Part shown: positions 18,823-54,278 of the stretch, piece by piece | Numbering within the stretch: position 1 is the first letter of the stretch | Layout: each line of letters starts with the position of its first letter | DNA from: Allonocardiopsis opalescens | GTDB lineage: Bacteria; Actinomycetota; Actinomycetes; Streptosporangiales; Streptosporangiaceae | Assembly (NCBI RefSeq): GCF_003002095.1 | Contig: NZ_PVZC01000008.1 | Location: 372,001-436,000 of the forward strand | Reading direction: 5' to 3' | DNA: 64,000 nucleotides | The notes under the pieces: model-generated | What the model was told of the DNA's origin: nothing | The model's database searches: none | Seen by the model: only the letters and a program-made list of their open reading frames with translations | Position numbers and translations under genes: made by a program

Positions 18823-18895
<73 letters not shown>

Positions 18896-28945: not shown

Positions 28946-29018
<73 letters not shown>

Positions 29019-48083: not shown

Positions 48084-48758
48084 TCATCGGTCCTGGCCTT
48101 CCCTGGCGAGGGGGTTGGCGATCACGCCGCTGGCCTCATCGAGCGGCCCCTGCGCCAGCCGGGTCACCAGAGGCGGTGACGGCGGCGCCAGGCCAGCCAC
48201 CTGATGGAGGCCGGTCAGTACGTCGTCAGGTCGTACGGCAGGTGTCGTATGCCGGACAACCATGCGAATTATCGCATACGCGGACTGCGCTTCCCGCGTG
48301 CCCGCCGGCTCCACCCGCAGGTGGGCGACGGCGGCCCGTGTGTCGAAGCGCCTGCGGCCCTTCTTCGTCAGGCGCTCGACCTCGACGGTGTCGGCGGCAA
48401 GGAAGGCCGCGGCCGCGGTTCCGGCCCGCTCCGCGTCCACTCCCGGCAGTTCGATCCGCCAGTCGGAGGCGGTGAGCCGGTCGGCCAGGCTCCCCTCTCC
48501 GGCGAACACCGCGTCCAGCACATCGATTCCCTCGGGCATCGAGTCGTCGAGCGCGGCGCGGACCGTCTCGGGCGGCAGGTCCGCGCTGAGCGTCAACTCG
48601 AAGTACTCCGCCTCGCTGGCCACCCCGGTGGGCGCGGCGCCCGCATAGGAGATCTTGGGGTGCGGGCTGAACCCGGCCGAGTAAGCCACCGGCAGGCCGG
48701 CCCGGCGCAGCGCGCGCTCAAGAGCGCGCGCGATGTCGCGGTGGCTCGCGAATCTCAT
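48084..48758 (-). CDS. TIGR03936-family radical-SAM-linked protein
   Basis: 224 residues from ATG 48758 (MRFASHRDIARALERALRRAGLPVAYSAGFSPHPKISYA). Partner of TIGR03960 radical-SAM proteins; function unknown, possibly RNA-related since it precedes rne. The frame stays open to 48902, encoding RVRVRYAKRGR just before the ATG, a stretch usual in this family, but no ATG, GTG or TTG is found there; CTG 48836 is the only candidate. The true start is probably upstream of 48758. Confidence 0.9.
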   Translation of the reverse strand: MRFASHRDIARALERALRRAGLPVAYSAGFSPHPKISYAGAAPTGVASEAEYFELTLSADLPPETVRAALDDSMPEGIDVLDAVFAGEGSLADRLTASDWRIELPGVDAERAGTAAAAFLAADTVEVERLTKKGRRRFDTRAAVAHLRVEPAGTREAQSAYAIIRMVVRHTTPAVRPDDVLTGLHQVAGLAPPSPPLVTRLAQGPLDEASGVIANPLAREGQDR

Positions 48759-49174
48759 CCGGCCGCGCTTGGCGTACCGGACGCGGACGCGCTGAGCGGT
48801 CGGGGAGACGGCTGGTCCCTCGGGTGCGGGGGGCAGTGCTCTTCCGTCCTTTCTGTCCGGGCCCGGCGGGCCGTTGCGGCCGACCGATAGGTAATGGGTC
48901 GGTTACCAGGGTACGGCGCGTCCGGACGGGCCGGGGCCGGTGGCCGCCGACGGCCGGACCGCCGCTGCGGTCCGGTGCGGCGCCGGGTGGGCGTCCCGGC
49001 CGCGCCGAACATCATCGATCTTCCCGCGCCGCACGGAGTTCAAAAGTTCGGACGCGCACCGATAAGCGGCGGTTCTCGCAGGCAGTGCGCGCACGGAGCG
49101 CCGCCGCGGCGCGCGTCCGGTCCGGCCACGAAGAAAATCGCAGATTTCTCCGCAAAGTTGTCAACCCTCGCGGC

Positions 49175-49196
49175 AACCGGCTCGTCCTATCTACGT
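49175..49196 (+). promoter_or_regulatory. ECF-type promoter candidate
   Basis: AAC (in GGCAACC) at 49175-49177, a 16-base spacer and CGT at 49194-49196 follow the general ECF sigma promoter pattern. It points at the sigma-like gene 200 bases downstream. Confidence 0.4.
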
Positions 49197-49229
49197 GCGG
49201 CCCGATGCGAGCGGGGCATCGGGCCGCAC
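49195..49229 (+). terminator. Perfect hairpin in the 5' region
   Basis: GTGCGGCCCGATGC and its complement (14 pairs), 7-base loop, followed by ACCTTTCTCC. It starts at the -10-like CGT, about 150 bases before the sigma-like gene; an attenuator or factor-binding site is possible. Confidence 0.5.
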
Positions 49230-49382
49230 ACCTTTCTCCACGGCCCTGCGCCGCGGCACTCCCCCGGGCCCGCCTCGGGAGTGGCCGGAATCGGCATGGA
49301 ATACCCCCTTTCGACCAGCTCGCGCCGGTATTCTGCCACCGCCGCCCCTTTTGCGGCCTCTGTCCGCCGGACCCCCTAGGGG

Positions 49383-50843
49383 TTGAGAACACTGGTTGAC
49401 GCCCAGCGGCCGCCCGTGCGCCCGCACTCCCTCACCCCGTGGCCCTCCGTCGACGGCGCCCGCGACGCCGCCGCGGTCAAGGAGCTGCGCGGCGGCGACA
49501 AGTCCGCGCTGTCCCGGATGTACGACGCCTACGCCGCGCGCCTGCACGACTACGCCGCCGCGCTGCTCGGCGACTACGCCGAGGCCCACGAGGTGGTCGC
49601 CGACACCTTCACCATCGCCAAGATCCACATCCACCGGCTGGCCGAGCCGGCGCGGCTGGGCCCGTGGCTGTACGCGCTGGCGCGCGCCGAGTGCCTGCAC
49701 CGCGACGCCGACGGCTTCACCCGCGCCCCCGGGCTCCCCGTCCCCTCCCCCGTGCGTGCCACGCCGCCCGACGGCGTCCCGCTCCCGGCCGGACTGGCCG
49801 ACCTCATGTCGATGGCGACCCCGTCCGCGTCCGAGGGCGCCGAGGGCGCCGCCGACGACCTGCGCACCGCGATGGCGGCCGCCACGCCCGCCGAGCAGGA
49901 GGCGGTCCGCCTCACCGAGGTGCACGAGCTCGGCGTCGCCGAGCTGGCCGCGGTGCTGGGCGTGCGCGAGCAGCTCGCCGAGCAGCTGGTCGACGGCGGC
50001 AATGTCGCCTTCTCCGAGGTCGCCACCGCGCTGCTGCTGGCCCGCGCCCACCCGGGCGGCTGCCCGGAGCTGCGCGAGCTGACCGATCCCGACGCACCCG
50101 GCGAGGACTGGCTGAGCCCCGAGCACCGCAAGGCGCTCGCCCGCCACCTGGACCAGTGCGTGCGCTGCTGGCAGCGGCGCGCCGAGCGGCGGCTGAACGC
50201 CGACATCCGGCAGGCACAGCCGCCTCCGGTGGCGGTCCCCGACGACCTGCGCGAACTGGTGAGCACCACCGCCTTCGGCACCGGCCGGGTCCGCTACCGC
50301 GCCGAACTGGGCAAGCGCACCGGCCCCACCCTGGGCCCCGACGGCTTCCCCAGGCCGCGCACCGCCCGCCGCCGACTGCCCTTCGCGCTGGCCGGCGGCG
50401 CCGTGGCGGCGGCGGTCGCCGGCACCGTGATCGCGGTGCAGCTGGCCCAGGGCGCCTCGGTGGCACCGGTCTCCGAGGGCGCGTCGCCGCAGGACCAGGT
50501 CGAGCAGGTCAGCACGGCGCCGAGCCCGAGCCCCAGCCCCTCGCCGTCGGCCTCCGAGCCGTCCGCGGCGCCCTCCGTCCAGGTGCCCGCGCCCTCGGAG
50601 TCCGCGCCCGAGATCCCGGTGTACGTGCCGCCGGTGGTGGAGGAGGAGCCCGACACCACCCCGACCAGCGAGCCGCCGCCCGACCCGGATCCGGAGCCCG
50701 AACCCGAGCCCGAGGTGCCGGAAGATCCGAGCGGTGGGCCTACGACGGGTCCCGAGCCCTCCGGAGAACCCTCGGCCGGAGGAGTGGCCGCGCCCCGTTT
50801 CACCGCCGTGGACCGCCTCGTCACGGTTCTTCCCGTCTTGTGA
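49383..50843 (+). CDS. Membrane-tethered ECF sigma-like protein with zinc motif (paralogue 1)
   Basis: 486 residues. Sigma-70 region 2-like at about 30-105 (LSRMYDAYAARLHDYAAALLGDYAEAHEVVADTF), region 4-like at about 165-205 (LTEVHELGVAELAAVLGVRE), then His255-x3-Cys259-x2-Cys262 (HLDQCVRC) as in zinc anti-sigma domains. A single membrane helix lies at about 332-355, and a 130-residue Ser/Pro/Glu-rich tail outside the cell. A sigma/anti-sigma fusion, perhaps released by proteolysis, is the inference. TTG 49383 is uncertain; GTG 49416 is an alternative. It separates two usually adjacent radical-SAM genes. Confidence 0.75.
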   Translation: MRTLVDAQRPPVRPHSLTPWPSVDGARDAAAVKELRGGDKSALSRMYDAYAARLHDYAAALLGDYAEAHEVVADTFTIAKIHIHRLAEPARLGPWLYALARAECLHRDADGFTRAPGLPVPSPVRATPPDGVPLPAGLADLMSMATPSASEGAEGAADDLRTAMAAATPAEQEAVRLTEVHELGVAELAAVLGVREQLAEQLVDGGNVAFSEVATALLLARAHPGGCPELRELTDPDAPGEDWLSPEHRKALARHLDQCVRCWQRRAERRLNADIRQAQPPPVAVPDDLRELVSTTAFGTGRVRYRAELGKRTGPTLGPDGFPRPRTARRRLPFALAGGAVAAAVAGTVIAVQLAQGASVAPVSEGASPQDQVEQVSTAPSPSPSPSPSASEPSAAPSVQVPAPSESAPEIPVYVPPVVEEEPDTTPTSEPPPDPDPEPEPEPEVPEDPSGGPTTGPEPSGEPSAGGVAAPRFTAVDRLVTVLPVL

Positions 50844-50940
50844 TGATGCGGTAGTGAACCAAACGCGCCGTGTTGTATGCGAACATGCAGGGGTTCTGTG
50901 AGAGACCCCAGACCTGCTCTGGGCGAGAAGGCGGCGGCTG

Positions 50941-52197
50941 ATGGATCCGGAACGCGACACTGACGACGGGGGCACCACCGGAGGCGGCTCCGGTCTGCCC
51001 CCGCTGGACCGCGCACGCGACCGCGCGATCGTGGCGGCGCTGCGCCGCAACGACCGCTCGGCCCTCACCCGGCTCTGCGACGCCTACGCGGCCCGGCTCT
51101 ACGACTACTGCGCCATCCTGCTGGGCGACCAGCACAAGGCGACCGAGGCCGTCGCCGACACGATCACCACCGTGTGGATCCACGTCGACGGCATCAGGGA
51201 GCCCGGCGAGCTGGGCCGCGTACTGTACGCGGCCGCCCGCGCCGAGTGCGCCTTCCGGCTCGACGCGGCGGCCGACGAGATCCCCGAGGCGCTGACCGAG
51301 CTGCTGTCACTCGCGTCGCCCTCCGACAACCAGCGCAAGTCCTCCCGGCGCGGCGGCCGCCGGTACGCCGTCAGCCGCGAGCAGGAGGCCGTCCAGCTCG
51401 CCGACGTGCACGAGCTGTGGCCCGCCGACATCGCCGCCGTGCTCGGCGTGCGCCAGTCCACCGTCAGCCACCTCATCGACGACGATCAGAGCGACGGCGC
51501 CGAGCGTTTCCCGCCGCTCACCCCGCCGGCCGACCTCACCCCGATCGTCCTGAACAACGCCTTCGGCGCCCACCTCGCCGACCACCGCCGGGCGCTGGCC
51601 CGCCGCACCGGCTCCGCCGGCGACGGGGGCGGCGGACCCTCCGCGTCCACGGCGGCCGCCGCGTCGGCCGGCGACGGCTTCGACGGCGAGGGCGAGGAGC
51701 CGCCGCGCAAGCGCCGCTCCATGGCCATGGTGCTGGTCGCCACCGGTCTGGTCGCGGGCCTGCTGGTCGGCTTCACCCTGGTCGGCAACCTGTGGCTCAA
51801 CTCCGAGCCGCAGTCGGACTCTCCGCCCGCCCCCGCCCCGGACGCCGGCGAACTCGCGCCGCTGCCCTCGGCCTCGCCCAGCGACGCCTCGCCCTCGCCG
51901 TCGCCGTCGGAGCCCTCGCCCTCGCCTTCGGTCTCCCCCTCGGCGGTGAACTCGCCGCCGCCCGCGGTCGAGCAGCCGCCGGCCGAGAACCCCCAGGAGC
52001 CCGAGCCGCGGCCGACCACCTCCAGCCAGCGCCCGCCCGACCCGCCGGACGACGACGAGACCGAGGACCCGGACCCGACGGATCCGCCGGACCCCGACCC
52101 GTCCTCGCCGGACCCCGACCCGAGTCCGACCGGCGACCCGGAGCCCACGGCCTCCGGCCCGTCGCCCGGCGCCGTGTCGCCGAGCACCACGGCCTAG
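50941..52197 (+). CDS. Membrane-tethered ECF sigma-like protein (paralogue 2)
   Basis: 418 residues with the same plan as the gene before it: region 2-like about 30-105 (LTRLCDAYAARLYDYCAILLGDQHKATEAVADTI), region 4-like at about 145-185 (LADVHELWPADIAAVLGVRQSTVSHLIDD), a linker, a membrane helix at about 261-287 and a long Pro/Ser/Asp tail. Unlike paralogue 1 it has no Cys-x2-Cys anti-sigma motif. ATG 50941 lies 97 bases after paralogue 1, so one transcript is likely. Function is inferred from fold only. Confidence 0.75.
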   Translation: MDPERDTDDGGTTGGGSGLPPLDRARDRAIVAALRRNDRSALTRLCDAYAARLYDYCAILLGDQHKATEAVADTITTVWIHVDGIREPGELGRVLYAAARAECAFRLDAAADEIPEALTELLSLASPSDNQRKSSRRGGRRYAVSREQEAVQLADVHELWPADIAAVLGVRQSTVSHLIDDDQSDGAERFPPLTPPADLTPIVLNNAFGAHLADHRRALARRTGSAGDGGGGPSASTAAAASAGDGFDGEGEEPPRKRRSMAMVLVATGLVAGLLVGFTLVGNLWLNSEPQSDSPPAPAPDAGELAPLPSASPSDASPSPSPSEPSPSPSVSPSAVNSPPPAVEQPPAENPQEPEPRPTTSSQRPPDPPDDDETEDPDPTDPPDPDPSSPDPDPSPTGDPEPTASGPSPGAVSPSTTA

Positions 52198-52236: not shown

Positions 52237-54177
52237 TCAGCCCTTGCCGACGACGCTGAGCGGCAGCAGCTTCCTGCCGGTGGGGCCGATCTGGATCTCG
52301 GTGCCCATGCTCGGGCAGACGCCGCAGTCGTAGCACGGCGTCCAGCGGCAGTCGTCGACCTCGACGGCGTCCTCGCCGTGCAGGGCGTCCTGCCAGTCCT
52401 GCCAGAGCCAGTCGCGGTCGAGCCCGGCGTCGAGGTGGTCCCAGGGCAGCACCTCGTCGCGCTCGCGCTCGCGCGTGGTGAACCAGTCCAGGTCCACACC
52501 GTGGGGCGCCAGCGCCCGTTCGGCGCAGTCGTGCCAGCGCTGGTAGGAGAAGTGCTCGCTCCAGCCGTCGAAGCGGCCGCCGTCGGCCCACACCGCCTCG
52601 ATCACCGCGCCGACCCGGCGGTCGCCGCGCGAGAGCAGGCCCTCGATGGTGGACGGCTCGCCGTCGTGGTAGCGGAAGCCGATCGCGCGGCCGTACTGCT
52701 TGTCGGCGCGCAGGGTGTCGCGCAGCTTGCGCAGCCGGGCGTCGACCACGGTGTGGTGGGTCTGGCCGACCCACTGGAACGGCGTCTGCGGCTTGGGCAC
52801 GAAGCCGCCGATGGAGACCGTGCAGCGGATGTCGCGGCGGCCGGTGACCTCGCGGCCGGCCCGGATCACCTCGGTGGCCAGCCGGCCGATCTGCAGCACG
52901 TCGTCGTCGGTCTCGGTGGGCAGCCCGCACATGAAGTACAGCTTCACCTGCCGCCAGCCCGCCGCGTAGGCGGCGGTGACCGTGCGGATGAGGTCGTCCT
53001 CGGTGACCATCTTGTTGATGACGCGCCGCATCCGCTCGCTGCCCCCCTCGGGCGCGAAGGTGAGCCCGGACCGGCGGCCGTTGCGGGTCAACTCGTTGGC
53101 GAGGTCGATGTTGAAGGCGTCCACCCGGGTGGAGGGCAGCGACAGTCCGGTGTTGGTGCCCTCGTAGCGGTCGGCCAGCCCCTTGGCGATGTCGCCGATC
53201 TCGCTGTGGTCGGCGCTGGACAGCGAGAGCAGCCCGACCTCCTGGAAGCCCGACGCCTTCAGGCCCTGCTCGACCATGTCGCCGACGGTGGTCAGGCTCC
53301 GCTCGCGCACCGGGCGGGTGATCATGCCCGCCTGGCAGAAGCGGCAGCCCCGGGTGCAGCCGCGGAAGATCTCCACGCTGTAGCGCTCGTGCACCGACTC
53401 CGCCAGCGGCACCAGCGGCCGCTTGGGGTACGGCCAGGCGTCGAGGTCCATCACGGTGTGCTTGGCGACCCGCCACGGCACCCCGGGCCGGTTCGGCGTG
53501 TAGGCGGCGATCCGGCCGTCGGGGTGGTAGGAGACGTCGTAGAACTTGGGGACGTAGACCCCGCCGGTGGCGGCCAGCCGCTCGAGCAGGCCGTCGCGGC
53601 CGCCCGGACGCCCCTCGCGCTTCCACTCCCGGATCAGCTCCGTGACGGCCAGCGCGATCTCCTCGCCGTCGCCGAGCACGGTGGCGTCCAGGAAGTCGGC
53701 GACCGGCTCGGGGTTGAAGGCGGAGTGGCCGCCGGCCAGCACCACCGGGTGCTCGTCGGTGCGGTCGGCCGCGTGCAGGGGCACACCGGCCAGGTCGAGC
53801 GCGGTGAGCAGGTTGGTGTAGCCCATCTCGGTGGCGAAGCTGACGCCGAGCACGTCGAAGGCGCCGACCGGGCGGTGCGCGTCGACGGTGAACTGCGGCA
53901 CGCCGTGCTCGCGCATCAGCGCCTCGAGGTCGGGCCAGACCGCGTAGGTGCGCTCCGCGAGTACGCCCTCGCGCTCGTTGAGCACCTCGTAGAGGATCTG
54001 GATCCCCTGGTTGGGCACGCCGACCTCGTAGGCGTCGGGGTACATCAGCGCCCAGCGCACCTCGGCGGCGTCCCACTCCTTGACGACGGAGTTCAGCTCA
54101 CCGCCCACGTACTGGATGGGCTTGGCCACCCGAGGCAGCAGCTCCTCCAGCCGACCGAAGATCGACTCCACGGGCAT
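52237..54177 (-). CDS. TIGR03960-family B12-binding radical-SAM protein
   Basis: 646 residues. An N-terminal B12-binding-like domain, then the [4Fe-4S] motif CTRGCRFC in the radical-SAM barrel, and a C-terminal Cys cluster CYDCGVC. Usually paired with TIGR03936 before rne; the reaction is unknown. I start at ATG 54177 with GGAGGGG five bases away. Here 3.4 kb with two sigma-like genes separates the partners. Confidence 0.93.
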   Translation of the reverse strand: MPVESIFGRLEELLPRVAKPIQYVGGELNSVVKEWDAAEVRWALMYPDAYEVGVPNQGIQILYEVLNEREGVLAERTYAVWPDLEALMREHGVPQFTVDAHRPVGAFDVLGVSFATEMGYTNLLTALDLAGVPLHAADRTDEHPVVLAGGHSAFNPEPVADFLDATVLGDGEEIALAVTELIREWKREGRPGGRDGLLERLAATGGVYVPKFYDVSYHPDGRIAAYTPNRPGVPWRVAKHTVMDLDAWPYPKRPLVPLAESVHERYSVEIFRGCTRGCRFCQAGMITRPVRERSLTTVGDMVEQGLKASGFQEVGLLSLSSADHSEIGDIAKGLADRYEGTNTGLSLPSTRVDAFNIDLANELTRNGRRSGLTFAPEGGSERMRRVINKMVTEDDLIRTVTAAYAAGWRQVKLYFMCGLPTETDDDVLQIGRLATEVIRAGREVTGRRDIRCTVSIGGFVPKPQTPFQWVGQTHHTVVDARLRKLRDTLRADKQYGRAIGFRYHDGEPSTIEGLLSRGDRRVGAVIEAVWADGGRFDGWSEHFSYQRWHDCAERALAPHGVDLDWFTTRERERDEVLPWDHLDAGLDRDWLWQDWQDALHGEDAVEVDDCRWTPCYDCGVCPSMGTEIQIGPTGRKLLPLSVVGKG

Positions 54178-54278
54178 CGAACCCCTCCGAACGAACGCAT
54201 GGCGCATGGCACTGACGTACCGGCCAGGCTACCGGCGCGGCCTGCCGCCCGGAGCCGATCCGCCCGGCGCCCGGGGGC

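Follow-up and report, generated by a model that had tools for sequence, protein, structure and literature searches.

The window analysed here is a stretch of 64,000 nucleotides from Allonocardiopsis opalescens (contig NZ_PVZC01000008.1, positions 372,001 to 436,000 of the forward strand), and coordinates given without a locus label are numbered from its first letter. It contains two neighboring genes, P1 and P2, whose products resemble extracytoplasmic function (ECF) sigma factors anchored in the membrane, and, upstream of both, an ECF-type promoter followed by a predicted hairpin. The features of this region, all on the forward strand, are as follows.

49160..49186, +: ECF-type promoter GTCAACC-N16-CGTC, an exact match, with the -35 element at 49160-49166 and the -10 element at 49183-49186
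49195..49229, +: predicted hairpin of 35 nucleotides at the expected transcript start, with a 14-base-pair stem and the loop GAGCGGG
49383..50843, +: P1, 486 amino acids; sigma region 2, weak sigma region 4, zinc motif, membrane helix, and Ser/Pro tail
49518..49700, +: sigma region 2 of P1, residues 46-106 (Pfam Sigma70_r2, 26.4 bits, cut-off 24)
49857..49982, +: weak sigma region 4 of P1, residues 159-200 (Pfam, 15.4 bits, cut-off 25.7; helices in the model)
50145..50168, +: zinc motif H-x3-C-x2-C of P1, residues 255-262 (zf-HC2, 16.0 bits, cut-off 22.2)
50382..50438, +: membrane helix of P1, from residue 334 (mean hydropathy 2.13; a helix in the model)
50941..52197, +: P2, 418 amino acids; sigma region 2, sigma region 4-like helices, membrane helix, and Ser/Pro tail, without a zinc motif
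51727..51783, +: membrane helix of P2, from residue 263 (mean hydropathy 2.41)

P1 and P2 are real genes. The first-pass annotation, made from the letters of the window, had called them paralogues on the forward strand, and this is borne out by the position of the two open reading frames, by an identity of 50% over P1 residues 20-205 (44% by tblastn), and by their place as sisters in the tree described below (support 100/99). The start codon of P2 is ATG; that of P1 is TTG and is uncertain. Each chain also has the single membrane helix and the Ser/Pro-rich outer tail that had been described, as hydropathy and sequence place a membrane helix and a proline-rich extension in both. The claim of sigma-like N termini holds in part: region 2 of P1 scores above the Pfam cut-off, but a Pfam scan gave no region 2 match in P2, and the Sigma70_r4_2 scores of P1 and P2 (15.4 and 16.2 bits) both fall below the cut-off of 25.7 bits, and each model shows the corresponding helices. 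Weak matches to NCBIfam ECF models were obtained for both proteins. The zinc anti-sigma-like motif ascribed to the first protein can be read in its sequence as H255-x3-C259-x2-C262, at a zf-HC2 score below the cut-off; the motif was sought in the P2 sequence and is absent. Among the three profiles that had been proposed for a search (Sigma70_r2, Sigma70_r4, and zf-HC2), only Sigma70_r2 rises above its cut-off, and only in P1. A carbohydrate-binding outer domain was matched by Pfam in neither P1 nor P2 up to an E value of 10.

Residues 13-363 of P1 were modeled from 64 sequences, with a mean predicted local distance difference test score (pLDDT) of 83.3. The best PDB match of this model is SigW of the SigW/RsiW complex (5wuq; E = 2.6e-4), with a template modeling (TM) score by target of 0.76, whereas the polymerase-bound SigL chain reaches only 0.33 by the same measure. 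Because the best match is a sigma factor in its RsiW complex and the polymerase-bound chain scores only 0.33, the modeled fold of P1 fits a chain held in an inhibited form. For P2, the model (mean pLDDT 78.3) contains confident region 2 helices, region 4-like helices, and a confident juxtamembrane helix pair. The first-pass annotation had seen a sigma factor and its anti-sigma factor in one chain, possibly released by proteolysis. P1 agrees with this picture in its SigW/RsiW-like fold and its zinc motif, but P2 does not; its sequence lacks the zinc motif, and it therefore does not form a self-inhibited pair.

In terms of the promoter, the exact motif GTCAACC-N16-CGTC precedes 51 of 126 related open reading frames, 49 of these standing first in their locus, and it occurs 53 times in total in those loci (731 kb, both strands). 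The form AACC-N16-CGTC is shared by at least 19 of the 91 promoters of Streptomyces coelicolor sigma-E in Table 1 of PMC6767563, whose listed variants include GTCAACC (sco3098) and GTGAACC (mprF). On the basis of this shared form, the P1 promoter is assigned to the class of S. coelicolor sigma-E, the envelope stress sigma factor, with the factor that reads it a putative one. In the genome of A. opalescens itself, the exact motif is found 12 times, versus three times for a reversed control pattern; of the 11 other copies, eight lie in coding-like frames and three are unclear, and the P1 site does not lie in such a frame. Upstream of mreB in the window, no strict sigma-E-like site was found by the pattern used. 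A second AACC-N16-CGTC stands on the minus strand at 49077, upstream of the DUF2344 gene listed below, and may be due to chance.

The hairpin lies eight bases past the promoter and has the sequence GTGCGGCCCGATGC-GAGCGGG-GCATCGGGCCGCAC. Folding of 49193-49245 gives -32.7 kcal/mol with a z score of -4.68, and the hairpins of four relatives have z scores of -4.6 to -5.3. Covariation was evaluated on an alignment of 30 of 40 distinct hairpins, with rows collected by their GGCCCG core, against 500 shuffles and slid controls. Paired cells make up 96.4% of the alignment versus 80.9% when shuffled, and 72 cells are changed on both sides versus 28.9 in the shuffled sets (0/500 shuffles reach it) and at most 14 in the slid ones. 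The covariation score is 0.441, compared with 0.166 for shuffled (0/500) and at most 0.106 for slid alignments.

With the GGCCCG core and the GAGCGGG loop kept constant in the search pattern, the collected loci yielded 116 distinct related hairpins. A promoter pattern that also permits CGTT or AGTC matched ahead of 111 of them, with a spacer of 16 bp every time; the other five are two inner copies of an array, two hairpins preceded by GACAACC, and one preceded by AACG. Six stem pairs next to the core, three outer and three inner, are not fixed by the hairpin pattern; their departures across the whole set are 10 G.U pairs, with no A.C or others. Nearer the loop, pairing is partly lost (in 24 of the 116 hairpins at the fourth inner pair), whereas the fourth outer pair varies, comprising 56 Watson-Crick, 43 G.U, 7 A.C, and 10 other combinations. 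As the hairpins are related to one another, these changes do not count as independent events. At the gathering score, Rfam returned only transfer RNAs (tRNAs) in the window and five further loci; for 48750-49450, at E values up to 10, it returned only isrL (9.6 bits, E = 3.4), which falls outside the hairpin. A literature search at the level of titles and listings found no such element.

The genome of A. opalescens has one match to the hairpin model at 59.6 bits, and the next reaches 22.1 bits. Larger searches were run with stricter filters. Within the window's family, 89 of 150 genomes match the model at E ≤ 0.01, and 58 genomes reach 45 bits or more, by a single match in all but two, among the matches listed. 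A search of 394 genomes sampled from the class gave matches at E ≤ 1e-5 in 31, of which 27 belong to the window's family and four lie outside it (41.8-45.0 bits). The GAGCGGG loop is absent from the three of these four that were inspected and from a weak in-family match in genome G068. A wide distribution of the hairpin across the class was rejected, as 27 of the 31 matches belong to the window's own family and the three others inspected are without the loop. Viral contigs gave no exact match to the hairpin.

The promoter and hairpin occur in three settings. In Thermomonosporaceae, they stand upstream of sigma genes. The second setting is the gap between two genes that lie on either side of P1 and P2 in the window:

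52237..54207, -: B12-binding radical S-adenosylmethionine (radical-SAM) protein TIGR03960, convergent neighbor (689 bits)
48084..48758, -: DUF2344/PF10105 protein, divergent neighbor (160 bits), adjoining TIGR03960 in 19 of 21 loci read

Among the 28 loci with the most similar radical-SAM protein (L060-L087), 21 have a strict-pattern hairpin between the radical-SAM gene and the DUF2344 gene, without a match to P1 or P2; in the window and in a sister genome (L088), the hairpin occupies this gap alongside sigma genes. Mean pairwise identity across the 21 sigma-free loci is 0.95 for the hairpin, 0.90 for the -35 element, and 0.98 for the -10 element, compared with 0.44 for the spacer and 0.35 for the downstream sequence. 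The third setting comprises nine further loci (L258-L265 and L267) without a sigma match in the stretch read, one of which is the second hairpin copy of sister genome G026 (L265:4670-4708, minus strand), beside an open reading frame matching SBP_bac_11 and VWA. The convergent open reading frames of L258, L260, L261, and L262 encode APH-family phosphotransferases; as to other frames in this setting, L262 and L265 match SBP_bac_11 (L265 also VWA), L264 is just under the VWA cut-off, and scanned frames of L258, L260, and one of L265 gave no domain match. Arrays of the hairpin are found in two genomes, with four copies at L261:1754-1946 and three from L264:2504-2739 onward (the third identified by eye); the later L264 copies have G.U changes in their stems. 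The hairpin and promoter are read here as a unit of their own, because they are retained at the same place in relatives without an adjacent sigma gene. A count of 13 hairpin-bearing genomes lacking any fused sigma factor, obtained by searching with P1, was dropped, as a profile search gave matches to long open frames in several of these genomes.

The P1/P2 pair is flanked by RNase E/G on one side and by RodA, PBP2, and MreC on the other, in agreement with the wall and RNA-decay setting that had been proposed for it. In 21 loci with both a TIGR03960 and a DUF2344 gene, chosen for the most similar radical-SAM protein, a sigma gene lies between the two in two (the window and one sister genome) and is absent in 19. 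For TIGR03960 and DUF2344, these counts fit the earlier observation that P1 and P2 split a usually adjacent gene pair, there named TIGR03960/TIGR03936. With sigma genes there in only two of 21 loci, this synteny was rejected as the key to the finding. Elsewhere in the window, two tRNA genes on the minus strand, 18823-18895 and 28946-29018, about 10 kb apart, have equal Rfam scores (71.4 bits).

P1 has a match at E ≤ 1e-8 in 68 of 80 sampled genomes of the window's family, many of the matches being open reading frames of ordinary ECF size. The H-x3-C-x2-C motif is present in 39 of 42 homologue sequences from the best family-search matches, a set in which two genes are counted twice, in cut and full form; the three without it are P2, L016:2800-3981, and L020, which reads H-x4-C-x2-C. 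The L016 gene, on the plus strand, is the third of a sigma array; it retains the anchor and tail, with region 4 and the zinc motif lost. The 74 named related loci, some of them cut by contig ends, have titles that are mostly Actinomadura and Actinoallomurus, with Thermomonospora and Spirillospora also represented. Two family genes no more than 600 bp apart form a close tandem in 42 of these; one locus has two genes further apart, five have three genes (L168 by way of a fragment), and 26 have a single gene. The first-pass annotation had suggested that the duplicated pair might be new, a claim that falls with the 42 close tandems, and the tandem arrangement was rejected as a novelty.

In a tree of 69 rows, the sister pair of P1 and P2 is joined by the gene at the same locus of the sister genome (93/79) and then by a Thermomonosporaceae clade (85/75). 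A third paralogue in the A. opalescens genome (L057:8655-10277, minus strand, on contig C5; 541 amino acids) sits in a different clade; it is of full length, carries the zinc motif, and ends in an outer domain-like part. Both P1 and P2 have lost the outer domains of their relatives and several conserved arginines, as read from the sequences. "BACON-like" was used for the outer domains of the relatives as a label only, based on resemblance, a motif pattern, and one Pfam match of 19.8, below the cut-off of 25.

Reduced members of the family were inspected at 14 loci (L268-L281), chosen since the searches matched mainly sigma region 2 there (11 by the profile search and three by the P1 search). 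All 14 encode a protein of 177-260 amino acids made up of region 2, the juxtamembrane motif, and a hydrophobic helix. No zinc motif is present, and the length would not accommodate region 4. The loci are syntenic with the third paralogue of the A. opalescens genome. The ratio of nonsynonymous to synonymous substitution rates (dN/dS) is 0.17-0.30 in five pairs, and the reduced proteins are therefore maintained by selection. The family has thus lost region 4 or the zinc motif more than once while retaining region 2 and the anchor, which raises the question of the role of a membrane-held half sigma factor.

We consider it moderately probable that the locus combines fused-sigma duplicates, P1 and P2, with a sigma-E-class promoter and a conserved hairpin that form an independent unit. 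Architecture, duplication, covariation, and the conservation of promoter and hairpin are the parts of this reading that rest on sequence; we infer transcription and the sigma factor behind it, a role for the RNA, proteolysis, and the sigma activity of P1 and P2. The two proteins would be lineage-specific duplicates in an actinobacterial family that unites an ECF sigma factor, a zinc anti-sigma domain, and a membrane anchor in one chain. Transcription would most likely start from the sigma-E-class promoter, so that the transcript would open with the GAGCGGG-loop hairpin. P1 would probably be kept inactive by its zinc and juxtamembrane parts, and cleavage could free it; P2, which could not be held by a zinc part, may be a membrane-tethered partner or a decoy. 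The hairpin probably represents a so far undescribed leader or RNA of the envelope stress response, and most likely a functional RNA under envelope-stress-type control, with its transcription predicted. We give an even chance to a more specific proposal, in which it is an undescribed actinobacterial envelope-stress small RNA, with an ECF promoter and a stem-loop of about 35 nucleotides whose loop GAGCGGG is fixed, found in most cases as one strong copy in a genome but sometimes as an array, which would bind a protein or RNA through this loop and in some lineages also form the 5′ end of a sigma-receptor message. The promoter-hairpin unit, retained without an adjacent sigma gene, is judged the least expected part.

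Several observations weigh against this reading. Of the 70 positions at which 90% or more of 62 relatives agree, 25 are changed in P1 and 32 in P2, 13 of the latter by deletion, and several conserved arginines are changed in both. Because of these changes, the sigma activity of P1 and P2 is doubtful and may be lost. Loss of recognition residues had been named at the outset as an outcome that would speak against sigma function, and these counts partly point that way, with region 2 of P1 still above the Pfam cut-off. In the covariation alignment, two of the five measures do not rise above the range of the shuffled sets: the number of pairs with two-sided change is 7 versus 6.2 for shuffled alignments (177/500 reach it), and further pair types number 17 versus 16.5 (260/500). 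The fork that joins P1 and P2 to the Thermomonosporaceae clade is supported only at 85/75. The short AACC-N16-CGTC could be read by other ECF factors, and the profile search matched candidate frames of at least 500 amino acids in several genomes whose hairpin has no adjacent sigma gene; because of these frames, control by a sigma factor of the P1/P2 family is still conceivable. A genome-wide promoter set in A. opalescens was rejected, as eight of the 11 other motif copies lie in coding-like frames and no wider target set was found.

The changed arginines in both proteins and the lost zinc motif of P2 are also what would be expected if P1 and P2 were no longer sigma factors, with region 2, the juxtamembrane part, and the anchor serving another role, such as tethering polymerase or a partner at the membrane. 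The 14 region-2-only loci, all encoding anchored proteins of 177-260 amino acids with low dN/dS in the five pairs, point the same way, but P1 has its region 2 above the cut-off, its zinc motif, and its promoter. We place this explanation somewhat short of an even chance. It is unlikely that P1 is instead an ordinary self-contained ECF52-like receptor that autoregulates from 49160-49186, with the hairpin merely a stabilizer of the 5′ end of its message. The occurrence of promoter and hairpin ahead of sigma genes in Thermomonosporaceae is consistent with autoregulation, but their retention without an adjacent sigma gene, at 21 of 28 radical-SAM loci and nine others, argues against it.

Two further explanations concern the inverted repeat itself. 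The hairpin is GC-rich, lies just beyond the 3′ end of the radical-SAM gene in 21 relatives, and is followed in the window by a short CTTTCT, features that would suit an ordinary terminator of the convergent gene. However, its stem core starts 10-15 nucleotides past the ECF -10 element, the flanks read contain no long T-run, the hairpin precedes sigma genes in other genera, and the GAGCGGG strand scores about 20 bits over the opposite strand where both are listed, so that we regard a terminator as quite improbable. A DNA operator bound by a dimeric regulator is still less probable. Symmetric change can be shown by operators too, and the half-site core GGCCCG is identical in 30 of 30 aligned rows, which were collected by that core; but the loop is asymmetric, arm length co-varies on both sides, and the departures at the six free stem pairs of the 116 related hairpins are G.U pairs, with no A.C or others.

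If the more specific small-RNA proposal is true, a single transcript would, in those lineages, combine a regulatory RNA with a sigma receptor. If the hairpin is functional, it would represent an undescribed actinobacterial RNA under envelope-stress-type control, whose promoter is precisely defined, whose fixed loop could serve as bait, and whose single copy would be easy to delete.

Among known systems, no Rfam RNA family matched the hairpin. The sigma-E promoters of S. coelicolor have AACC-N16-CGTC in common with the P1 promoter, and the parts of PMC6767563 drawn on here mention no accompanying hairpin. Fused sigma/anti-sigma membrane chains with presumed proteolytic release are already described as ECF48, ECF52, and ECF53 (PMC8999054, PMC5826349). 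ECF48 and ECF53, compared by description, have a C-terminal fusion that carries a zinc finger together with one or two membrane helices, with proteolytic activation expected in the account of PMC8999054. The actinobacterial ECF52, as described for SCO4117 of S. coelicolor (PMC5826349), resembles P1 in joining an ECF sigma domain, a membrane helix, and a proline-rich outer part in one chain; the zinc finger that this ECF52 chain also contains has a candidate counterpart in the H-x3-C-x2-C motif of P1, which scores below the zf-HC2 cut-off. It differs from P1 and P2 in that no carbohydrate-binding or other outer domain was matched in them, in the missing zinc motif of P2, and in gene neighborhood. 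P1 may work like an ECF52-type fused sigma/anti-sigma factor but is not filed under ECF52, because the carbohydrate-binding feature was not found and the likeness is one of description rather than of group models. The closest fold to P1 is that of SigW-RsiW (5wuq), in which a sigma factor is held by a zinc anti-sigma factor; the two functions are carried there by two chains and in P1 by one.

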